Of a stretch of 64,000 nucleotides of DNA, positions 15,201-62,800 are shown piece by piece. The notes below the pieces were generated by a model. The model searched no databases. It was not told the origin of the DNA and saw only the letters and a list, made by a program, of their open reading frames with translations. This DNA comes from Chrysaora quinquecirrha (taxonomy: Eukaryota; Cnidaria; Scyphozoa; Semaeostomeae; Pelagiidae), in assembly GCA_014526335.1 (NCBI GenBank), contig JACTAT010000037.1, forward strand, positions 10,306,952-10,370,951. The letters run 5' to 3'. The position numbers were made by a program, and so were the translations under genes. Numbering within the stretch: position 1 is the stretch's first letter; each line of letters opens with the position of its first letter.

Positions 15201-18200
15201 CACTAATTTGTCTTTATTATTGAGCATTAACCTTTCTCACAGGCACGCTAGTATTATCCTAATATAAGCACACAAAATATGACACCATTTCACTGCCTTT
15301 GGCTTACTATTTTCTTAACAGTTATTTTATATTGTGTCTTATTCGAATGTTTTATTAGATATTTTATTCGAATAAAGTAGACTAATGCTTGTGCAGAAAG
15401 GATTGGCATGAACCGAAAATGCGAGGATTAGTATGGAGACTTGATACTGTGAAAGGAAATGGTGCTGATGAATCATAAGTGATGTTAGCGTAGTTAAAAG
15501 CAGAAGAATTAATTACCTGAAAATAACTTAGCCCGAGTGGGGAAAGGCCAAAGGATTACGACACTTTTGTTAAATAAACAATGGTTTCTTCACTGTACAC
15601 TTTACAGTAACATCCTTAGAAAAATATTCTGTTTGATGCAGAATTTACAATCCATTTCCCTGTTTTACAACTAATATGTGTCGCATATTAAACAATGAAC
15701 ATTCGCATAGGCATAAAAATCTGACTGTCCTTTTATATAATATGCTGCAATTCTAAAATCTAGAATAAAGATTCAGTATAATTTTATACCAATATGATGT
15801 AAAATATATATATAGTACAAGATTTTTCCACAAGTGGCATACCACAATAGATGGGATTCGAACCTGGACTGCATGATCAGAGAGCCAACGACGTTTCCAC
15901 TGAGCTATAGAGCTCAATGAAATCGCCGAGTAACTCTTTGAGTCATACAGCCCAAGGCTCTCTTCCGTTTGACTTTTGTGTTTCGGCTATGTTGAGCCTT
16001 CTTCAGCGCCATACATATTTGTACATATTTTTCATGAATGGCGAACACTAGGATAAATCTATCCTAGTGTTCGCCATTCATGAAAAATATATATAGTACA
16101 AGATGTATCACAAATTAAAGTATGATCGTAACAATGACCAATAAAACTTTGGTAAAGTGGTTTTCTATTCTTATCTCCCTATCATATTGACGTTAATTAA
16201 TGGTTCTCTTCTTCAGATTATCGTCCTTTTGATCAATTTAGCTAATGCGTTTATATCAGTCTTGCTTTAATATTATCTCTTGTTTTATTTTCTTAAATCT
16301 TAGTATATTGCATATGCAAGAAAATATGTTCATCCAAAGCTGTCCGAGGAGGCTGCCAATGTACTTCAGGTAACAACCGAAATACCGTGTTTCCTTCAAC
16401 AAAGTTTTAGTTTTTAATGAATTTGAAGTGGCATTTATTAGAGCGCATTTCTTAATAAGTTATCGAAACAATTTACTGAGGTTTTTCATAATGAGAAAGA
16501 TTAACAGAAATTTTTTCATTTCGGAATATTTAATGGATCGTTTTAAAGTAAATATAGATGCAGATATGTATAAACTTCAGAAGGAAGAAATTAATAATAA
16601 TGTTGAAATTGTTCCGTTTTTGTCACACTGAACTTAAAAAAAGTAGACTTGATAGTTTAGGACCTCCTATTCCTTTTACCTTTTAAGCCCTTGATCACTT
16701 GAGCACAGAAACCTGAGGCTTTTCCGTTGTTTATTTTTCTGCATAACGGCAGTAAAGTTAACACAAATAAATTTCTCCTTGTTTTTTTTCTGATTTTTCA
16801 TGCATCCTAATCACCATTCCCCAAAGACACTGAAAGGAATCATAACAACAGTCCTTGACAAGAGCAATGATATATTTGATACATTTGGAAGCAAACAAAT
16901 ATGGCGCGCCAAACCGGCCAAAAATATAACTTTTTCTGACAGCAATTTTATATATTTTTCTGCACGACTTTATATTTTTGTTGCACGACTTTACAACTTT
17001 GCAGACAGAACAATATTTGTGCTCGATGATTATCAACTTTTGCTGACAGCAAAAAGTTTTACGTTTTTTACTGTCAGTAAAAGTTATTTCGCTGTCAGCA
17101 AAAGTTATATCTTTTTCAATTTCAACCTGTCAATCAATCAATCAAAAATGTTCACGGGGTTTATATGACAAAGCCTTTGTGGTTTATGGAGCGATTCTCA
17201 GCGAATACTCCTTTAGCCTCCTACCTCGCACGTTTATAGATTGTTAGTGGTATTTGTAACAAGATGGGAGGAAAAGATGAAGAAGCTGGTGGATAATTAA
17301 CATGGAATAGAGTATACACTCTCTTTATGAGCAACTGGCCAATAAGAACCAATTAGACACTGTATAGACTACATATACAGTACATCATGGCAAACTTGAC
17401 GATTCCCGGGTATGTGCCGCCCATACATACATATGGGTGGGTGGGTTTTTGGCCCAGAAATTCTGTAAACATGGATGATTTTCGAACTACTATGAATGTT
17501 GAAAAAGATGCAAAAGATAAAACATTTTCTCTTACTTTCTCTGAGAATGGTAATATGATTGAGCTAGATAGATCTAAGTACTAAAAAGTGGATCTCAAGG
17601 TAATCATATAACAAAAATAGGGGCACTGCATACACAAGTTGAACAGCCGCAGTTTGATACGTGGTCACTTGGTTAGGAAGAAATGCTCAAAGAAAGAGGG
17701 GAACAGCCATTGAGGGTTGAGTTTCATTGCATAGACGTCAACTCCATAACATCAATAGGTATGTCCATTTCAGTCGACAAGATTGGCGAAAGACCAGAAG
17801 AAATTGCGCGGCCATTTGCCAGCTACTAGCGATTGCTGAAATGAACTGGAGCGAATCTTAGCGAAGCCAATCGACCAATTCAGTTTCAGTTCAATATTAT
17901 AGCCACAAGCCAGATAATATCTGAAAATATTAGTTTTGCGTTTTCATGACGTCACACGAATTTCGAATCGTAATAACTTCTGAGTATTAAGCCAAATCGA
18001 ATTGGCGTTTTATTATTTTTTGCTCCATTTGAGATGTTCTTTCTGACCATATCATTAAAAACACAAAATTCAAAAGTCAGATTTTAACTGACCGTAACTT
18101 TTCTACGTCATCGATGACGTCACAACCATTGATTTGCCAGAATGTTCCCAAGTCTTAAAATGACCACCAACCACCAAAGAGTCCAAAACTACTTTAAAAT

Positions 18201-21200
18201 TTCCGGTTACCCAGTTTGCTAGAATGTTGCCAAAAATGCCCTGTCTATTGGTGCAATGGCTTAACTGTGTAATCGTTGGCAATAGTGCATTTTATGAAGC
18301 AAGCATGAAAATTGGCATACCTACCCAGTTTGATGCGCTGAAGATGATGGGATACAGACCCCAATCGAAAAATGCCCCCAGATGCTATTTTTAGACTGGG
18401 GTACTCGGTACCATACCTCTACAAGGTTTTCTACCATAACAATGCTGGGAATAACGATACTGACATGAAACTTGGCAAAAATGCACAGTTTGATACGCTG
18501 AAAAAGATAGGATGCAGACCCCTCCGGAAAAATGCCCCCTTATTCTATTTTTAGACTGGGGTACTCGGTACCATACCTCTACAAGCGTTTCTATTGTAAC
18601 TATGTTGGGAATTAAGATATTGCAATGAAACTTGGCAAGTATACACAGTTTGATAAGCTGAAAAAGATAGTATGCAGATCCCTCCGGAAAAATGCCTCCT
18701 TATTCTATTTTTAGACTGGGGTACTCGGTACCATACCTCTACAAGCGTGTCAATTGTAACTATGTTGGGAATTAAGATATTGCAATGAAACTTGGCAAGT
18801 ATACACAGATTAATAAGCTGAAAAAGATAGGATGCAGACCTCTCCGGAAAAATGCCCCCTCATTCTATTTTTAGACTGGGGTACTTGGTACCATACCTCT
18901 ACAAGTGTTTCTATTGTAACTATGTTGGAAATTACGATATTGCAATGAAACTTGGCAAGAATGCACAGTTTGATAAGCTGAAAAATATAGGATGCAGACC
19001 CCTCCGGAAAATGCCCCCTTATTCTATTTTTAGACTGGGGTACTCGGTATCATACCTTTACAAGTGTTTCTATGGTAACTATGTGGGAAATTACGATATT
19101 GTAATGAAACTTGGCAAGAATGCACAGTTTGATACGCTAATAAAGATAGGATGCAGACTCCCTTTGAAAAAGTGTCCCCAGTTCTATTTTGAGACTAGGA
19201 GACTCAGTTCCATACCATTCTCAAAACGTTTCAATTATAACTGTGATATACTACGTTAAGATATTACAGTAGGAACATTCCTCGTATCTATATGCTTCAA
19301 TGCTGCGTCAGACTGGCGTACCTACTTTCAAGCATCTCTATTTCAATAACTATTAATTAGATGTTTCCACAAGTGGATACCACAATGAGTGGGATTCAAA
19401 CCTGGGCTGCATGATCAGAGAGCCAAAGACGTTTCCGCTGAGCTATAGAGCTCAATGAAATCGCCGAGTAACTCTCCAAGTCATACAGCCAAAGGCTCTC
19501 CTCCCGTCTGACGTTTTTGTTTCCGCTATGTCGAGCCTTCTTCAGCACCATATCAATAACTATTATTCACAAACTTATCATAAACTTAAAATATGTTTGT
19601 ATGAAACGTTAATAATAAATTAAATAAGAAATAGTGGTCTAGTACAAACCCCTCGCTAAACGCGGCGTAACGCACTTTCAAGTATACAGTAAGTTGTATA
19701 AAACTGATGGAGAGTTGTTTATCATATTTACAATGCATTTTGCTATACTCATCAGCTTATCTTACCTTAACTAAAGAGCATCTGGGGCTACGGCTCGTGT
19801 GCTCCGTTCATCTAAGGGCGCACCCATGTTCTCGCATTCAAGAATATATAAGAGCCAATGTATATGATAGAGGGTCTGTATGCTGAAAGTTTATAAATTT
19901 GCACAGTATAGAGAGGCAATTTGTACACATATACATGGCGAACACAATGAGACCTATAACCATAATTCAAGGATATACAAATCATATGTTCATACTGTAT
20001 GTACAAGCAGCTAAACCTGATAACAATTTGAGTATATGACCTCTGTGCAAATTTAAAAAACTTTCAGCATACATGACCTCTATAGTATACACCGACTCTC
20101 ATATACTACCAATCTCCTCAGACCGTGTTCTTTGACGCGAGAACACGGGGTGCCGGAGCATAGAAGTTATCCCTCCTAAATTCTCTTTAAGGGAGATTAG
20201 ATGCTGAGTACGGTGTGAAGGGGGCTGGTATTGTTAAATATATATTCATTATGATATACAACATTGCATCAGTTTTTATACACCATACTGTATAGATGAA
20301 ATGCGTTGCAAGGCGTTTAGTGCGGGCTGGTACTAGGCCATTATTTCTCTTTTGATTATTAATTATTATTTCATTAAAAAGATCCAAAGTCTAAAAATAG
20401 AATGAAAGGTCATTTTTCCGAAGTGGTCTGCATCCTATCTTTTTCAGCGCATCAAACAGTGTATACTTGCCAAGTTTTATTGCAATATCTTAATTCCCAA
20501 CATAGTTACAATCGAAACGCTTGTAGAGGTATGGCACCGAGTCCGCCAGTCTAAAAATAGAATAAGGGGGCGTTTTTCCGGAGGGGTCTGCATCCTATAT
20601 TTTTCAGCTTATCAAACTGTGTATACTTGCCAAGTTTCATTGCAATATCTTAATTCCCAACATAGTTACAATTGACACGCTTGTAGAGGTATGGTACCGA
20701 GTACCCCAGTCTAAAAATAGAATAAGGGGGCACTTTTCCGGAGGGGGTCTGCATCCTATCTTTTTCAGCTTATCAAACTGTGTATGATTGCCAAGTTTTA
20801 TTGCAATATCTTAATTCCCAACATAGTTACAATCGAAACGCTTGTAGAGGTATGGTACCGAGTCCCCCAGTCTAAAAATAGAATAAGGGGGCATTTTTCC
20901 GGAGGGGTCTGCATACTATCTTACTCAGCTTATCAAACTGTGTATACTTGCCAAGTTTCATTGCAATATCTTAATTCCCAACATAGTTACAATAGAAACG
21001 CTTGTAGAGGTATGGTACCGAGTACCCTAGTCTAAAAATAGAATAAGGGGGCATTTTTCCGGAGGGGTCTGCATCCTATCTTTTTCAGCGTATCAAACTG
21101 TGCACTCTTACCAAGTTTCATGTCAGTATCGTTATTCCCAACATTGTTATGGTAGAAACCCTTGTAGAGGTATGGTACCGAGTACCCCAGTCTAAAAATA

Positions 21201-24096
21201 GCACCTGGGGGCATTTTCGATTGGGGTCTGTATCCCATCATCTTCAGCGTATCAAACTGGGTAGGTATGCCTATTTTCATGCTTGCTTCATGAAATGCAC
21301 AATTCTGACAACTAGCTGATATACCAGCTTTTCCTACGATTTGTAGAGGGAATAAACCTACTATTAGGCCATATGAATAAAATGCTTTGATTTGCTCAGA
21401 GCTCTGTCTTCGTCTTTTTCTTCCATCTTTGCACGCGGAGTGGAATGAAGGCTAAGAGAGATTTCCCGTAGGTTTACAAAAGTTATATGTGCCCGATTAA
21501 AATATGTGCCCGTTTATAATGATCGAGCACAAATATTTAAAGTCGTGCAGTAAAGATATAAAGGTGTGCGATACAAATATAAAATCGTGCAACTAAAATA
21601 TAACAAATTACTGTCAGAAAAAGTTATATTTTTGGCCGGTTCGGCGCGCGATAAATAAATGCTACAAGTTGCACTGACTGACTGCAAATGATTTGTGCGA
21701 AATGGTTCATTTCCTAGGGACTTCTTAGCAACATTTCTTATACTTCTGCAAAATAAGAAACAATATTCCAGAGGTTCAGGTTCAACATTTTCTGCTTGCT
21801 AAAGCCAAAACAAAAGCGCTGTTTTCTGTGACAGTGCAGATTTTTGCCTAATTTCCAACCTTTTCGATCTAGCTAATACAAGAACAGAATTTAAATACGT
21901 ATCAAGTAAATGTTGTAATGAATATTGAGGAAGTAAGTTGCAAAATAGATTTGTTGAATACGCATCTCGTATAAAGTATAGCTATAGAATCTTTTGCAAT
22001 GTTTGAAAATCAAAGCTTTTGCAATGAGTCTACTTAACCTAAGTTAGACATGAAATGTTTCTGAAAAGGGATAAATAGCTTTTTAAGTCAGGCCTCTGTG
22101 GCGTGCTTTTCCAATGCCATTGTATCAGCACTCCATTTATCTCGTTAACAGCTTGTACGAATGAGCTCGAAATGTTGCTTGCATTAATTTTGATTCAATT
22201 ATTTTCTTGCAGGAGTTCTATCTTACATTAAGGCGACAGTATAGAGGTCCAGAAAGCACCCCGGTTACAACAAGGCAGCTAGAGTCACTAATTAGGCTAA
22301 CAGAGGTAAGCTGATCATTAGTTGGTTGTTTTATTTAGTGTACTTGCCGATATTGTGGATTAGATTTTAACTAAACTATTGTTGCCCATTTATTTTGATA
22401 ATGTGATATAACAGAGATTTTGAAAAGGCTACTGTGGCCCGTTTTCCCTTTTTTTCACTAAACAAATGCTTAATATCACACTCAAAAGATTCTAGAACAT
22501 GTACGTCCCTACTCGTTTTACATGGGTTACAAAGAAACCTGAAGATAAAGTAACATACATTATGACAATCACGAAAGATTGCAATAAGTATTACCTTTCT
22601 ACACTTTTCTACACGATTTGAATTCTGCTTTTATTCCAGTAAGGTTATACGCAAGACTGTCAAACATCATTAATCCAAAGTTGCGGTCCTCAATTTTGGG
22701 TCTTCTTTATGATTCAACAAGAAAAGAACGACCATTTCGATTATGTGATTTAGGGGCGTTCTTAAAATCTAAGGAAGATTTGTCTCACAGACTCACGCTC
22801 TAGCTTATTGCTCTGTATGCGCCATGTTTCAGTTTATTTCTTAAAAAAAAATATTCATTATTCATCAGGTCAGGTAGCTATTGTATTTGTTTACATCATT
22901 TAACAGGCTAGAGCAAAGCTAGAATTGCGTGAAAAAGCTACGCGAGAAGATGCTGAAGATGTCATTGAGATAATGAAATTCAGGTATGTACTTGTGAAGT
23001 GATATCTCCTTAACTCCATTTCATTCTAAGCTTTGTATTATTCGCATTAGATCTGAAATGAGTTTTGATTTTTCCAGTCTTGTTGATATATACGTTGATG
23101 ATGTGGGAAATTTGAATTTGGAAAGGTCTTTGCAAGGATCAGGAATGAGCAAACGTAAACAGGTAGAGATTTCATGTTTTTATGTTTGATACCATCATGT
23201 GTTAATATCATCATGTGTCACCTTAACGGAATGTACAATACTTTCTTCATTGTCGCTTTCTCTTATTTGCGTTGTCGCTTAAGCACATTAGCTATCTCGT
23301 CTTATTCATACTGCATCGATTTTTCGGTTTCATTGGAATTAATTTGTAATATGACCATTTTCTTCAATTTTTTTATTCTATTATTTTTTAGATTAAAAAA
23401 TTCATTACAGAGTTAACAAGAATAGCAGATCGAGATTGCAATTCACTCTTCAGTTATGATCAAATGAAACAACTGGCTTTGGTAATAGCTTGCATTATAA
23501 ATTTTAAGTTGAAATCTTCCAAAGTTTATTTTTCTAAATACCTAAAATATGTCTAATGAATTTAACTAGTGCCATGCCATATCTGATGAACTTAGAAACT
23601 GGTCTGCATGATTGGAGAGCTAACGTCAAGTCGTCCAGTCTACTGAGCTAAATATCTCAATGAATTGAACACCCAACTCTCCATGTCATTCGGTCACAGG
23701 CTCTTGTCCCTGTAGCCTGTGCCGTAGACCCAAATCTCGAAGGAGAAATCTTCGAGATTTGGGTCTCCGGTGCGAGGTGTTGTTCCCGTTAGTCTGAGGT
23801 TTTTCTAAAGATCTTTTGATCATCACTGTTCGATTGTTGTTCATCTTGTTCATCAGTGCTTTATTGGCCCTCATATGATTCCATTGATTTTCATCGATGT
23901 TCACTGGTATCAATTAATGTTTATCAGTGTTCCAGCCTGTATGGTCCTGCAGTTCAAAATATTAAAACACATTTTATTTCAGAGCATGAAGCTACAGACC
24001 GGTAATTTTCAAGAGTTCGTTGACAGCTTGAACATTCAGAATTTTTTAATTAAAAAGGGATCTGGTTGTTATCAGCTGCAAACGACAAATTTCTGA
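1769..24096 (+). CDS. MCM8: DNA helicase MCM8 (minichromosome maintenance 8), 28 exons, N-terminus missing
   Basis: AAA+ helicase subunit that acts with MCM9 in homologous recombination and crosslink repair in the nucleus. Exons: 1769-1901, 2572-2672, 4340-4381, 5067-5152, 5256-5338, 5905-5973, 6760-6884, 7356-7414, 7899-7929, 9356-9418, 10088-10156, 10423-10500, 10646-10718, 11527-11591, 11708-11751, 12157-12243, 12648-12681, 12798-12827, 14121-14176, 14412-14442, 14963-15034, 15131-15181, 16304-16369, 22213-22305, 22907-22983, 23078-23162, 23392-23481, 23983-24096 (TGA). All phases agree, giving 668 codons against roughly 840 in vertebrates. Visible motifs: RLYNYEP; zinc ligands CSSC and CTTQEC; Walker [20 protein letters not shown]; Walker [32 protein letters not shown]; arginine finger [40 protein letters not shown]; a C-terminal winged-helix segment ending YQLQTTNF. 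In-frame TAG abuts the first exon, so at least one further coding exon lies upstream. Identification is very secure; small exons 4340-4381 and 7899-7929 rest on phase and homology. Confidence 0.96.
2716..3256. repeat. Foldback MITE-like element in an MCM8 intron
   Basis: Two arms of about 165 bp (around 2716-2885 and 3095-3256) are inverted copies of each other. Shared blocks include the pair around GTATTGCACCACCTT, the CAAAATGGCGG block and the GGGCTCAGGAGCCCCT block. No coding capacity was seen, so it is a non-autonomous element. No clear target-site duplication was found. Confidence 0.75.
4225..4328 (+). repeat. 52-bp perfect tandem duplication
   Basis: The unit 4225-4276 is repeated exactly at 4277-4328. 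The second copy ends 11 bases before the acceptor-proximal start of MCM8 exon 4340-4381, so the duplicated segment includes the likely branch-point region. Confidence 0.9.
8041..8506. mobile_element. MITE with TTAA ends and repeated TTTCGCGG motifs
   Basis: Flanked by TTAA at 8041-8044 and 8503-8506 with inverted ends GGGAATTAATTTTCGCG and CGCGAAAATTAATTCCC. Inside, TTTTCGCGG-type motifs recur several times in both orientations. TTAA flanks fit a piggyBac-type non-autonomous element; that family assignment is inference. The right end carries about 16 extra bases between the inverted motif and the TTAA. Confidence 0.7.
9204..9276. repeat. AT microsatellite
   Basis: Runs of TA dinucleotides with occasional interruptions, about 80 bases upstream of MCM8 exon 9356-9418. 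Confidence 0.9.
15823..16086 (-). mobile_element. Hammerhead-ribozyme plus tRNA-like retroelement, copy A
   Basis: Read on the minus strand, the element opens with a ~28-bp hairpin, then a hammerhead fold (15978-16048), a spacer, and a tRNA-like module whose A box (complement of 15897-15907, TAGCTCAGTGG) and B box (complement of 15854-15864, GGTTCGAATCC) are both good pol III promoter matches. It ends in CCACTTGTGG plus a short A run. The direct repeat ATATATAGTACAAGAT flanks both sides (about 15807-15822 and 16089-16104), the signature of target-primed reverse transcription. It lies in the MCM8 intron 15182-16303. A tRNA gene is ruled out because the module has no proper acceptor stem. Inference: short retroelement mobilised in trans. 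Confidence 0.82.
15978..16048 (-). ncRNA. Hammerhead ribozyme, copy A
   Basis: Minus-strand reading: GTGTT, cleavage point (between complements of 16044 and 16043), stem I strand CGCCAT, a ~25-nt loop, stem I strand ATGGCG, core CTGAAGA, stem II GGCT...AGCC, then GAAACAC. The conserved cores CUGANGA and GAAA are present (position 7 is free in the family consensus), stem I is 6 bp and extends by 3 bp after a mismatch, and stem III is GTGT with ACAC. One extra A sits between CUGANGA and stem II, which may affect activity. Confidence 0.72.
18298..19200 (+). repeat. Tandem array of ~160-bp repeats, left arm
   Basis: About six copies of a unit marked by TTTTTAGACTGGGGTACT, GGTACCATACCTCTACAAG and TGAAACTTGGCAAG. 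Copies differ at many sites, so this is an old array. Short open frames across it are by-products of the repeat, not genes. Confidence 0.88.
19356..19552 (-). mobile_element. Hammerhead/tRNA-like retroelement, copy B, 5'-truncated
   Basis: Minus-strand copy starting inside stem I of the ribozyme, so the cleavage half is missing; core CTGAAGA and a mutated stem II and GGAAAC remain. A box complement 19435-19445 and B box complement 19392-19402 (one change from consensus) are present. Target-site duplication TCAATAACTATTA lies at 19343-19355 and 19553-19565. It is nested within the large foldback element, so it inserted after that element, or was carried with it. Confidence 0.85.
20386..21301 (-). 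repeat. Tandem array of ~160-bp repeats, right arm (inverted)
   Basis: About six units matching the left array in opposite orientation. The outermost unit and its flank (to 21301, GCTTGCTTCATGAAATGCAC) mirror the start of the left array, so the two arrays are arms of one inverted duplication. Confidence 0.88.
23585..23722 (-). mobile_element. Diverged tRNA-like element related to copies A and B (copy C)
   Basis: On the minus strand the order AGAGCC..., GGAGAGTT, TTCATTGAG, TTTAGCTCAGTAGACTGG, AGCTCTCCAATCATGCAG parallels the spacer and tRNA-like part of copies A and B. The B box is degenerate (CAGTTTCTAAG) and no ribozyme core is recognisable. It lies between the last two MCM8 exons. Confidence 0.55.
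23727..23765. repeat. Perfect 16-bp hairpin
   Basis: Arms 23727-23742 and 23750-23765 (GACCCAAATCTCGAAG and its complement) with a 7-base loop. It sits at the 5' end of copy C in that element's orientation, the same place as the hairpins in copies A and D. Confidence 0.85.
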
Positions 24097-32100: not shown

Positions 32101-35100
32101 TCATTTTTCATTACCAGGGTTCTAAGAACTCTCTTTTGAGATATTTTTCGTTTGATTGGCCAGGTGGTGTCCTGTGAAAATAACGGTCAGATTTAAAAAT
32201 AGGTAAAAATATGTAACAAAGTTAAAAGTTATGTAAGGTAGTATGCAGGATACAATAATTTATTTACATTTTGAAATAATCAGTTGTAAGATCTCTAAAG
32301 GATGATAAACTGTCAATTTCACGTTGTTCTGAAGGCAATGAATTATAGAGTTTCATTCCCACTATTACACAGCAAGATTTTGCAAGCTTAATATTTTTGG
32401 AATCTGCAGCATAAGTCTATTATTTCTTGTTGTTTTTTCGTGTTTCCTCATAACAAACAAATTCTTGACTGGCATGACAGCATGTTTCTTCATTTCATTG
32501 TGTATAAGTGTTTGCTTTTTATGTTTTCTGAGTGATTCGGTTATCTAAAGATAATAGTTTTGAAAGCTGTGTGTTTGTCCGATTCATGTTGGTTGTGCAG
32601 CTATACAAAAGAGAAGGCAATAAAATCTTCTTGTAGACTCTCACAAGGGATTCTGGAGAAGATTATAATTAAGTGACGATTGCTGACGTTTTATGGTAAA
32701 AGTACGATGGAAATTTGTACTAAAGTAGAGTATTTGGTCAAATATTGTGCCTATAAATACTTGTACTCTTTTGTGGAAGCAATTGTTTGGTGTTGTATTT
32801 GAGATTAATGACGTCACTATGTTGATTTATTTTTTTGGGTGCAAAATAGCATGGACCCTGTCTTGCCTGCTTTCAGATTGATTACAAGTTCATTTCTGGC
32901 AAAACAATCTGCCATACTTCCTTAATCAGTATTAAGATCTTGTTGACTGTTAACATATGTTGTTCTGGATAAGTAGATGACTGTGTCATATGCATACATA
33001 ACAGCTTTTGAAGTCTTAAATAGCTCTTGAAATCATTGAAATAGATAAGGAACATAATAGGCCCCAGAATAGACCCTTGGAGAACGCCACAGGTTAATGG
33101 GCACCGCTCAGATCTTTGACCATCGACTTGGTAAGACAATGATCGGTCGAAAGGGCAATCTTTGAACCAACACAGAGCATTTCCTGTTTTGCCTTTAAGA
33201 TTCCATTTTCGAGATCAGGATAGAGTGGTTGAATATTTCGAACGCCTTGATAGATCGTCAGTCAGGAACAATGTAGCGAGCTCAGTTGAGCGCCCTTTTC
33301 TATATCTGAATTAGTATTTTGACAGGATGTTGTTTTTCTCAACGTGCTTTGTTAGTTGGTCTTGGGTTGCTCGTTGAAGGATCTTTGAGATAGCTTGTCA
33401 TTTCATCCTTCGCACCAACTTTATTCAGGGCTACAACCTTGGCAATTTTCCGATCATTTGGTACAGTGCTGGATTGGAGAGACAGGTTTATCATGAATGA
33501 AAGCGGGTCTGAGAGCACTGATGCGGCATCTTTTAACCTGGAGGTATTACCTGGAGGTATTTCAACAATGCCGGGTGCTTTCTTTCTCTTTAGGTTTTTT
33601 AGTTGGTTTTCACAAAATTTCTCGTTACGTGATTACAAGAACTTAAAAGTCAGCCAATCAACGTCTTTTCTGCCTTTCCTTGCTTTCCTTAACATTTTGT
33701 CGCGAGCAGCCATTGTGGTTTTGATTTCTGTAGACAGCAATGGCCAAAATCAGCCTTTTACTCGTTTCTTTGCCAATGGTGTATGGCGGTTTATGGTGAC
33801 GAGTAAGATTTTTTTAAGACTCTCACAGAATCTTTTACAATCGAACAGCAGTAAAGGGGTTTCCAATCATATGATCAAAGTTCCTTCGTGAAAATATCTG
33901 AATCATAATCTTTATTATTGCGGGAAGTGATTTATCTCGGAGAATTTTTTATATTGCTTAACTTTTGTACAGTCATGATCACTTATGCTCAAAGAAAGGT
34001 ATAACTTCTATTTTTGATATGTTTAACGCCCTTTTTGATAACGATAAATCGATAACCGAACTTGAATCTCTGGTTGCTCTCGTGGGATCCTTTATAAGTT
34101 GTTTAAAACCTTGACCTACAATTATCTCTTTTACATCACGATTTTCTGTTCTTTTGAGGTAATCGATATTAAGTTAAACTCTCCCAAAAGGATAACCTCG
34201 TTTTTGAGCTGTTGTTGTTTATTAACATCTCATTGAAGATGTCTTTTCAGTTTTTAGGTGGATATGATCTGGGAGCCTGTAGAAAGGCAACGGATTAGGA
34301 TACCTTTCGCATTTTCAGGGCAGATTCCGATCCAAATACATGCAATATTTGCATTTTCGAGATCAGATCGATGAGTCCAATTTATGTTGTTCGGAATATA
34401 CATCTGTATACCTCTGTTCAGTTTATGCAGGTTTTTTGATCATTTGGTGCATTAAACTCTTTTTGAAACCTGGTTCTTTTTTCAGGAAAAGAAGAAAAAG
34501 ATGATGACCCTCAGGTACAGTATTTCCTAACATTTATTCATGTTAATAGAAAAATTACTATCGTACTTCAATAACGTGTCAAGAAATTTATGTTTTGGAA
34601 CCTGCCTTACTTGAAAGCTTGTTTTTCATTACCTTGTAAAGAGGATGACCCGGATGACAGGTAAATCTGGTTGTTGAAGAGACGGTTGTTCTGTGCAAAG
34701 TGGCTTTTGCCAGAAGCCGGTGCATGAGTTGTACAATACGTTTCTTCAAAATTTAAACGCTACTCAAAAGCATGAAAAGAAGCAATAGAAAAGAGGAATT
34801 TAAAATAAAAAAAAATCGGAAAAATTTGCATCAATCAAGTTTAAATATATGATTTATAGTGAATATTTATGTGTGGTAAATTTGTCCACAAATTATTCAA
34901 AAAATTTCAAAGCTACTAAGTGATTAGGTTATTATTTGTTGTTGAAATTATTTGTAATTGTTATTTGCAATATTGTTATTTGTAATTGCTGTTTGTAATA
35001 TGTAATTTGTAATATTTAAATGTAATTTGATTAAGAATCTCTATGTTAAATTTTATGCCGCAGGGTTGCTATATATTTCCATGCTCCCTGTGGCATCGTC

Positions 35101-59882: not shown

Positions 59883-62800
59883 TCAAAACTGATCGCATAA
59901 AGAGTCAGCCAAAATGCTGGAGATTCCATCCCTAGATGAGCGAATCGTGAGTCGATACATCTACGACAAAATCAAAAGAAACAGCGAGTAGTGATGAATA
60001 TGGAGAACAAAATGCAGGGGTTATGTGGCCGAATGGTCAACGAGTTCGGCTCACGATCTTAAGGTCTTGGGTTCGAATCTCGTTTGGACGACTTTCTAGA
60101 AGCAAACAGTCAACTCAGCCGTTCATCCTTCCGAGGACAGTAAATAAATACCCAGCGTGTTCCTTCTAAAACATTAGTCTGGGGGCACAAGATGCGGATC
60201 GTGGGTGATCCAGCTCTAAGTTAACTAAAAGCAAAGAATCTCGAGTACCCACAACCCTAATGACGTTATTTTTCGATTTAGATATTGGAGAATAAACATA
60301 ATCCTTGCCTTTTGGGTGAAAAATTAGGGGGGGGGGGATCACAGCAGAAAGGTTGGAGTAATTTCATCAGCCAATCAAACTTGTCTATTCTAATTTCGGG
60401 AAATCTGATTGGTGATTGGAAAGACCAAAAGTTGTCAATAAGACGAGATTTTGGGATGAAACATTTAAGAGCGAATGCATTTGGCGTTCAGTAGTTCAAC
60501 TAGTAGTACAATACCCAAATTATAAACACTAATGGAGAAAGTTTAGCAAGTGTCAACACGGGTAAAGCCTCCAAAGAAGAAAGTTTAGATCAGAGGGACA
60601 GATGGATTTTTGCAAGTGTTTGCAAATATGAATTTTTTGTTACCTTTCCTTGTTTATTTGGCTCTAACCGAATCAAGCAGCCAGCTTGAAACGCTTTAGT
60701 ATGAATAATTCCAGCCATGACAAAATTATCTGGATTAGGATCAATGTTTTCCAATAGACTTAGACCAGAACCAAGTAACTAAAATCAAAAATTGATAAAA
60801 TTATTTCAAACACATCAAATGCAGATGAGTGGGGAGGACAAGCAAACAGAATGCCTCTAGAATTCGACGCAATCGTACGTTGATCAATATTCATCATCAG
60901 TGGGCTACCACAATTAGTGGTAGCCCACTTATGATGAATATAAATCATGTGTCAGCATATGTCCAGTTCACTATATGTTCTATGCTCTGATGAAGGCTTT
61001 TAGCCGAAACACAAAGTAACACCTTGGCTGTGGAGGAGACGTGTGGCTGGAAGGACCTCGAGTTGGGCTGGCTACTTCATTGCACTGTGTAGTGCAGTAA
61101 AGTAGTCGACTGGCTTGTTGTCCAGAAGGTCACTGGTTCGAATCCCAGTCAAGGCAATTATAACAATTGTGGTAGCCCACTTATGATGAATATATATCAT
61201 GTGTCAGCATATGTCCAGTTCACTGTACATTGATCAATTTAGAGATACCCACTTCTAATGATTCGAAATTTATTCCTTCTGTAGCTAAGACAACATACGA
61301 CACCCCAGTATCAAAAACTGACATGATGAACGTTTCTAAATTCTTTAAAATTATTTTATGGGGAAGAAAAGTAAAAGGCAGATATTCCAAACCTTTGTTG
61401 ATGTTGCATCTTTATCAATCGCAAAGGCAGCTGGAAAAATTTTCTGTGTCTCTTGCCCAGGACTGAAAAAATGAAAAATTGATTCTAAAATCTGCTCTAA
61501 AATTTCTAATCATATACATACTCATTGGATGTGTAATAATTTCTAAATGGACGCGTGCGGGGACCTGTCGCTGAAAACTGCGCCTAGTAGCTACTTAGAG
61601 CATTGAATTCAAAGGAGCTATGTAATTAACTGAGTTGTTTGGAAAGCTTTTTGGTGCTGAAGTGAGAAGTGGAACTTGCGATAAAAGCCTGTCGTAGCGA
61701 AATATTATTACCGCAAAAGCCCCGTCAAGTTTGGAAGTATTCGAGGGAGGGACTTCTTAGAGAGTGAGGCTTAACTGAGATGAATGCTATCAAGACGAAT
61801 GCAAAGCAAACAAGGAAGTTTTAGCCTTAAATCATATGAATTGGTAGACAAAAGTAGTTATTAGTAGCCAGGACACAAGATTTTGAATATCAAACACATT
61901 ATCACAAAACTTTGTATTTAATTCTGTTCCCTGGCTACTGAATTGTTTATTGGCTCAAAAAAGGGGCTCCCCTTCTCTATAAAAGAAAGGAATATACGGG
62001 AATCAGGATAACAGAAAAAATCATACAGTGAAAGCTCAAAAATATAAGAACCAAGTGTCTTGGTTGATAGAAGAAATGGAGGGAGTTCAAAATAGTCTTC
62101 ACTCACCTACTCAACTGTTTCCATCTATTAAAGAAATCTTGCGAACTCATCGAAGCCCCTTGAGCAAACTTGATAAGGAAAACTGGCAATTTTAGAACAA
62201 CTCGATGTAGTGTTCCAGTTACACTGTTGAAAGATAGGAAATATAAATTAATGAAATGCGTAGAAATGAGAACACTTTGTGAGATTCTTTGCCGTCTCAA
62301 AAAAGTTCTGGAGCTAGAAAGTTTCAAAAATGATCAAAACAAGGGACCTACGCTTCCGACGATGACGACAACGACGATGATGTTGTTGATGATTGTGATG
62401 ACAATGATGATGATGATGACAATGATGGTAATAATGATGATGACGATGATTTTTATGCTGAAAATGATGAAGATGATGATTGTGATAATGATGATGATGC
62501 TGATGATTGTGATAATGACAATAACGAAAGTTACTACGACGACGAGGATGATAATTAAGTCGTTGGATCTGACGATGTGACTGACAGCCTTTAAGTGAAA
62601 TGGGAACGCAACTTCACACGTTTGCAGATGTTTAACGTTTAACTGTACCGTGTAGCTGAAAAGTTCATCCGAGTTCATCCACTTCATCAAGCAACAAAAC
62701 AAAAAACAGTATCGTGTAGAGTTCAATAGACTTACCTAAACTGAACGAAGAGGAGTGGTTGTTCCGTAAAATCACCGACACATTCAAAGTTAATTGTCTG

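Follow-up and report, generated by a model that had tools for sequence, protein, structure and literature searches.

A dispersed retrozyme-like repeat of Chrysaora quinquecirrha that combines a type III hammerhead with a tRNA-like module: copy ends suggest insertion by Penelope-type retrotransposons

RESULTS

A single inserted copy of a 252-nt unit

The window analyzed here, a 64,000-nt stretch of a Chrysaora quinquecirrha contig (JACTAT010000037.1), contains at positions 60889-61224 a single inserted copy of a dispersed repeat (family A), spanning about 1.2 of its 252-nt units. Positions within the unit are given as q, counted from the expected hammerhead cleavage site; in the full unit, the window position equals 60953 + q. 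The features of the copy are the following.

60875-60888, no strand: left target-site duplication, GTACGTTGATCAAT (repeat and flank comparison)
60889-60915, minus strand: inverted piece of the unit, 27 nt; its outer end lies at the "no-tail" site, q239-246, depending on how letters shared with the duplication are assigned
60917-60953, plus strand: last part of an incomplete first unit, which includes helix III's 5' strand and C60953, after which cleavage is expected
60948-61013, plus strand: hammerhead of type III form (letters, descriptor scan, fold of the family majority)
60954-61205, plus strand: complete 252-nt unit between two successive cleavage sites (repeat spacing)
61090-61100, plus strand: site of the A box in the tRNA-like module; the box is degraded here (letters)
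61135-61145, plus strand: B box, GGTTCGAATCC (letters, pattern count)
61206-61224, plus strand: "tail", the first 19 nt of the next unit, stopping within loop I of the hammerhead
61225-61238, no strand: right target-site duplication, GTACATTGATCAAT (repeat and flank comparison)

From left to right, the copy comprises the 27-nt inverted piece, the end of a truncated unit, a full unit and 19 nt of the next one. The first-pass annotation of this DNA had described a retroelement inserted as 1.2 units, with a 56-bp direct repeat at a distance of 252 bp and a 14-bp target-site duplication, and the repeat, the unit boundaries and the duplication bear this description out. The direct repeat (60917-60975 and 61169-61227) measured 59 nt, with 97% identity and a spacing of 252, and the two copies of the duplication agree in 13 of 14 letters. 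The inverted piece at 60889-60915 had been overlooked. No open frame of 180 aa or more was found in the unit region. Matches of the copy to microRNA and snoRNA families of Rfam were rejected, as they fell below gathering and the best ones lay on a palindrome (60881-60947).

Elsewhere in the window, two arrays of a 160-bp repeat lie in opposite orientations about 1.2 kb apart (18322-19216 and 20388-21263), a reverse transcriptase fragment, LINE-like by eye, occupies 32885-33214 (minus strand), and a run of 500 N at about 47.4 to 47.9 kb marks a scaffold gap. Searches of 20 window frames against Pfam yielded no gene and two weak matches, to RVT_1 (E of 0.00098) and zf-MYST (E of 0.086). In the rest of the genome, copies of mitochondrial COX1 were encountered inside large contigs at two loci (L063, C179:1325925-1327262, and L064). 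By eye, these copies adjoin COX2 and ATP6, and COX1 is opposite in orientation to the genes named by eye as COX2, ATP8 and ATP6. In the COX1 copy TGA is read as Trp and AGA/AGG as Arg (two readings against solved COX1 chains), i.e., code 4. Taken together, this code and the orientation of COX1 point to a medusozoan cnidarian.

Copies and arrays of family A

A search of the same genome (328 Mb, 740 contigs) with the window copy as the query gave at least 75 matches; the best 40 of 391 candidates were scored, and all family A counts therefore concern the best-matching copies. The sample consisted of 39 fetched places plus the window copy (40 loci). L027 and L028 (duplicates of L025) and L035 (duplicate of L034) were excluded from the counts of ends, unit comparisons and variants, and were retained in the 40-locus duplication count and in one unit alignment.

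Tandem arrays cross the cleavage point in unbroken register, reaching a family A maximum of five full units in L019. The tandem copies elsewhere in the genome that the earlier proposal called for were thus found, both here and in an array of about 7 kb formed by a second family (see below). Two or more complete hammerheads, judged by unit junctions, are present in 5 of the 40 loci (L016, L019, L021, L024 and L043), and by layout it is these loci from which whole units could be released. This is not so for the window copy, in which the one complete hammerhead (60948-61013) precedes the A and B boxes (61090-61145) and the second is cut off at 61224. The earlier idea of a 252-nt unit cut from this copy's own RNA polymerase III (pol III) transcript is therefore not possible by layout.

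Units within one array differed by a mean of 2.3% (26 pairs), compared with 5.0% between loci (1,199 pairs), and none of 5,000 permutations gave a value as low as the within-array difference. In L021, about 2.75 units are enclosed by one 17-bp duplication with one mismatch. Both observations fit, though not decisively, a circular template read for more than one turn or a homogeneous multimeric template. One L016 unit matches a unit of another locus letter for letter, and the L043 units differ by 0.4 to 6.4% and partly alternate (ABAB), a pattern that copying or amplification of a dimer could give. The 5' ends cluster at q185-226 among the 40 scored copies, which were selected by their match to the query.

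The hammerhead of family A

In the window copy, helix III is formed by 60948-60952 and 61009-61013, followed by C60953 and by helix I (60954-60959 and 60981-60986). The core CTGATGA (60987-60993) precedes an extra A (60994), helix II (60995-60998 and 61002-61005) and GAA (61006-61008). The corresponding family A letters are TGTGT/ACACA for helix III, C17, AGCATA/TATGCT for helix I, CTGATGA, the extra A, GGCT/AGCC for helix II and GAA. A complete core with three pairing stems, as claimed earlier, was confirmed by these letters and by a descriptor scan. The descriptor, composed after the motif had been seen and allowing an extra letter, matched the window once on the plus strand, never on the minus strand and never in 100 letter shuffles (one strand); CTGATGA-N12-GAAAC occurs once in the window, against a chance mean of 0.03. 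The predicted minimum-energy fold of the majority stretch (74 nt) contained all 15 expected hammerhead pairs, with the core, the three helices and the open helix III that define a type III topology. A first reading by eye as a minimal type I hammerhead was dropped, since it left stem I unpaired and the type III reading pairs fully and matches the fold. An extra A between A9 and 10.1 is found in the hammerhead of one viroid, CChMVd, a plant pathogen RNA unlike the family A element.

Covariance-model searches of family copies, the check proposed with the first-pass annotation, gave a mixed result. The window copy had no hammerhead match in Rfam at gathering and none at an E value of ≤10. RF00008 (Hammerhead_3) matched two of five family loci, in both cases at the expected place and below threshold: L019 (29.4 bits, E of 0.0081) and L038 (23.2 bits, E of 0.48). 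When searched alone, L019 reached an E value of 0.00015. It contains five hammerheads, of which the five-locus search listed just one, and in the alignment the extra A appears as an inserted letter. No family A locus searched reached the gathering score of 48.5 (best, the 29.4 bits of L019), and five further family loci gave no hammerhead at an E value of ≤1. The RF00008 genome search yielded no match at an E value of ≤0.001 among the best 68 of 48,184 candidates; the controls were without a match too, so this negative carries no weight.

The core, helix I and helix II were intact in 43 of 50 units (helix III was outside this count). Variants were then classified at 41 hammerhead core and paired positions, fixed from the structure before counting and after the alignments had been viewed, with the extra A and the loops excluded. 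Shared variants (two or more loci) fell at none of these 41 positions and at 38 of the 211 others (Fisher P = 0.0013), the excess outside the hammerhead being one that recurrent CpG changes could inflate. Private variants (one locus) fell at 16 of 41 and 91 of 211 positions, respectively (P = 0.73). Shared variants mostly arose in source copies, and private ones mostly after insertion. Since the former avoid the core and paired positions and the latter do not, constraint probably acted on the ribozyme during the spread of the family, with decay after insertion.

Folded as a circle, the majority unit had a predicted energy of −87.5 kcal/mol (z of −4.9 against 200 dinucleotide shuffles). The predicted circle kept helix II, and helices I and III were replaced by other pairing.

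The tRNA-like module of family A

Type 2 A and B boxes of pol III, as in tRNA-derived short interspersed elements (SINEs), are present in families A and B. The first-pass annotation had placed such boxes downstream of the hammerhead; a module on the same strand with an exact B box was indeed found, and the A box proved to be degraded in the window copy. The B box at 61135-61145 is one of two in the window (chance mean, 0.05), and the A box, TAGTGCAGTAA (61090-61100), lacks the GG with which the majority A box of the family ends. The majority A box was exact in 21 of 50 units and the B box in 34 of 50. Shared variants occurred at 5 of the 22 positions of the A box (q137-147) and B box (q182-192); the boxes thus appear to lack a hammerhead-like constraint, which speaks against family A depending on a pol III promoter. 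No tRNA was detected by ARAGORN (bacterial setting) in 34 loci, or by Rfam in any stretch of either family that was searched. A run of four T is absent from the majority unit and present in 5 of 50 units; by its letters, the window copy has one in the loop of helix II.

Insertion ends and duplications

The right ends of the 37 independent loci lay at q9-28 (21 loci), q238-252 (15 loci) and q199 (1 locus). Thus, 36 of 37 fell at either of two sites about 30 nt apart. An inverted left part was present in 13 of the 37 loci, and 7 of these 13 pair one tail end with one no-tail end. The left end has the tail and the right end does not in L023, L030, L038, L040 and L042, the arrangement being the opposite in L046 and the window copy; the no-tail class is defined as q225 or more, and L023 (right end at q252) and L046 (left end at q251) lie at the cleavage point itself. 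L033 has an inverted left part and is no-tail on both sides. Five of the 13 inverted left ends lay at q191-226, outside both sites (L009, L013, L017, L022 and L026).

Duplications of at least 10 nt, with one mismatch allowed, flanked 22 of the 40 loci, compared with 4.8% of 1,553 swapped flanks; their lengths ranged from 10 to 22 bp in about half of the loci. The targets were slightly AT rich (69% in the 15-nt flanks versus 63% further out). Poly(A) or simple-repeat 3' tails were not consistently present at the junctions, individual copies such as L012, L019 and L024 bordering simple sequence.

A second family in the same window

The second exact B box of the window led to a copy of another family (family B), at 16086-15821 on the minus strand.

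15806-15820 and 16087-16101: 15-nt duplication, TTGTACTATATATAT, on the two flanks
15821-16086, minus strand: family B copy, with an inverted tail piece at left, one unit and a no-tail right end
15978-16048, minus strand: hammerhead-like fold, with helix III 16048-16045/15981-15978, T16044 at H17, helix I 16043-16038/16012-16007, core CTGAAGA 16006-16000, extra A 15999 and helix II 15998-15995/15988-15985
15854-15907, minus strand: tRNA-like module, with A box TAGCTCAGTGG (15907-15897) and B box GGTTCGAATCC (15864-15854)

The family B unit measures 235 to 237 nt by core spacing. The two families are collinear, with 67% identity in the tRNA-like stretch (E of 2e-5), a match in the helix II region (E of 0.004) and a third stretch, ATTGTGGTA..CCACTT (E of 0.03). 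The extra A and helix II are conserved in family B, whose helix I is re-paired (CGCCAT/ATGGCG versus AGCATA/TATGCT in family A): in the window copies, four of the six pairs differ on both sides between the families and still pair. This re-pairing was read by eye because in the hammerhead alignment of the two families a gap interrupted helix I on its 5' side.

Ten family B cores were present in four sequences, nine of them scorable and one at the end of its stretch. All nine have six pairs in helix I and four in helix III, counting G-U pairs, and three have a G-U pair in helix II. The predicted minimum-energy folds held the three helices in six of the nine, with one or two extra pairs tying core letters; two others folded otherwise and one lost helix II. 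H17 is U in the family B copies, which is a weaker choice for a hammerhead, and Rfam found no hammerhead in this family. For its part, the A box TAGCTCAGTGG of the window copy is closer than that of family A to the type 2 promoter consensus; in the four sequences the A box was found at 10 places (loose pattern) and the B box at 11. A genome search gave at least 138 matches, with the best 39 of 2,336 candidates scored, and the family forms the array of about 7 kb mentioned above (C2:7733413-7740396). Its window copy pairs an inverted tail end with a direct no-tail end.

Penelope-like genes in the genome

A genome search for GIY-YIG domains gave at least 124 matches, with the best 150 of 245 candidates scored, not each of which need be a Penelope-like element (PLE). 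Three loci (L060, L061 and L062) contain open frames of 722 to 922 aa with RYIDD or RYMDD, and Pfam placed a C-terminal GIY-YIG domain in two of them (L060 and L062). In L061 (920 aa, RYIDD), hmmscan found no GIY-YIG domain at an E value of ≤10, though the genome search had placed one there. The L062 frame had 519 database relatives among 7,999 scored; among the best 120 listed, many carry GIY-YIG and none is named. Comparison of 15 GIY-YIG loci with the unit revealed no common sequence (best E value, 0.24). Hammerhead-like motifs (CTGATGAGGATGTAAATCTGAAA) lie behind PLE-like frames in L050, L051, L053 to L059 and L062, some of these loci overlapping; read by eye, they appear to be minimal type I hammerheads.

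DISCUSSION

Families A and B resemble the metazoan non-LTR retrozymes described by Cervera and de la Pena (2020, PMC7229834), which are noncoding tandem units of 170 to 400 nt with a hammerhead, a range that includes both 252 nt and 235 to 237 nt. They share with them target-site duplications of more than 4 bp, larger than those of plants, and, in family A, a highly self-paired predicted circle. Such retrozymes are reported there in jellyfish, co-occurring with PLEs. They have type I hammerheads, unlike the present units, which combine a type III topology and an extra A with a tRNA-like module per unit, and we have therefore not placed the element in the metazoan type I family. Animal hammerheads are described as mostly type I (PMC7229834, PMC4918200), which makes the type III form of these animal-type units unusual. 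That form is shared with plant LTR retrozymes, which differ in having LTRs, a PBS, a PPT, duplications of 4 bp (not the length seen here) and about 700 nt (PMC4918200, PMC7229834). Plant retrozymes have a circular RNA, as is predicted here, and a "blocked" hammerhead is described in their circular folds (PMC4918200).

The joining of a hammerhead to a tRNA has a precedent in the Sm-alpha and W36 repeats of schistosomes, which are likewise SINE-like (335 bp for W36.2_W001) and in which a full tRNA-Gln (Glu in the legend) is joined to a type I hammerhead (PMC4918200, PMC8490949). These repeats differ from ours in the hammerhead type, in the tRNA-Gln and in belonging to flatworms, and the passages of those two papers that deal with them contain no end analysis of the two-site kind.

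The copy ends suggest that Penelope-type retrotransposons insert the repeat. In a lizard PLE, Frangieh and others (PMC11167929) describe reverse transcription from two adjacent internal sites, the stretch between which is an optional tail of 30 to 40 bp, and both target strands are cut and extended. A rotifer PLE has a 31-bp tail at one inverted repeat (PMC3846280). Similarly, 36 of 37 family A right ends use two sites about 30 nt apart, and 7 of 13 inverted copies (6 do not) pair the two; partial tandems, inverted end copies and short duplications are common to both systems, and PLEs too carry a hammerhead, in their terminal repeat (PMC11167929, PMC3846280). Since this pattern resembles the PLE tail signature, PLEs are named here as the probable inserting machinery, and the "LINE or PLE enzyme" of the first-pass annotation is narrowed toward the latter. 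There are differences. The lizard start site did not differ between strands, whereas seven family A copies pair different sites at their two ends, and in vitro the lizard PLE did not need hammerhead cleavage (PMC11167929). PLEs, moreover, encode reverse transcriptase and GIY-YIG, and the 252-nt unit has no such frame.

Three other readings were weighed. The unit might be a tRNA-derived SINE moved by a LINE, in which twin priming made the head-to-head pieces, later DNA recombination made the tandems and the hammerhead was a passenger. The A and B boxes, the varying length of the duplications and the LINE-like reverse transcriptase fragment within the window (a reading by eye) agree with this, but the junctions lack a consistent poly(A) or simple-repeat 3' tail, the 3' ends fall at two sites with inverted/direct pairing in 7 of 13 copies, and it is the hammerhead, not the boxes, that shows constraint. 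The enclosure of about 2.75 L021 units by one duplication also speaks against it, and we consider this reading unlikely.

A noncoding PLE derivative that kept a terminal repeat and its hammerhead, i.e., a pseudo-LTR relic, would account for the PLE-like insertion pattern (PMC11167929, PMC3846280) and for hammerhead-like motifs behind PLE-like frames in the same genome. Nevertheless, the unit is dissimilar to the 15 examined GIY-YIG loci (some overlapping), the PLE motifs are minimal type I by eye and the unit is type III, and a tRNA-like module is part of the unit, all of which make a relic quite improbable. Less probable still is a satellite amplified mainly at the DNA level, with a hammerhead that has no present role: the 7-kb array of family B and the partly two-unit period of L043 are what it would predict, and dispersed copies with duplications, the constraint on the hammerhead and the 43 of 50 units with an intact core and helices I and II are not.

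A retrozyme-like noncoding retroelement inserted by PLE machinery is thus the best explanation of the whole, with a probability of roughly 0.7. The unit structure, the hammerhead fold and its constraint, the insertion ends, the duplications and the PLE-like genes are shown by the sequence; from them we infer transcription, cleavage, circularity and the use of a PLE protein, in the following manner. Multiunit genomic copies would be transcribed, perhaps by pol III from the tRNA-like boxes and otherwise by read-through, and type III hammerheads one unit apart would cut the RNA into 252-nt units, to be closed into circles, probably by a host ligase. A PLE protein with reverse transcriptase and GIY-YIG would insert this RNA, opening both target strands; cDNA would start at either of two internal positions, one on each side of the hammerhead cleavage site and about 30 nt from each other. 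It would then extend across that site, often beyond one full turn, to yield partial-tandem copies, sometimes with a head-to-head inverted piece and about half of them inside duplications of 10 to 22 bp. A more specific proposal is tentative, its chances being close to even: some animal retrozymes would form a lineage that has type III hammerheads and its own internal pol III promoter, and a PLE protein would insert the RNA of this lineage, circular or multimeric, by two-site initiation.

The element is a variant of the retrozyme kind, with a ribozyme showing signs of selection and PLE-type insertion. In the literature searched, whose coverage of work on PLE hammerheads is incomplete, we met no type III animal retrozyme, none with PLE tail ends and no report of such an end signature. 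A 2020 review states that retrozymes seem to harbor no promoters and that animal retrozymes have no motif revealing their autonomous partner, with PLEs/Terminons named as likely candidates (PMC7761336). On both points the present families have something to add, as their copy ends point to PLEs and their tRNA-like module offers a candidate promoter. The copies would provide a natural 252-nt template for the two-site initiation seen in vitro with one PLE and, if this reading is true, insertion ends would be a genomic signature naming the machinery behind animal retrozymes.
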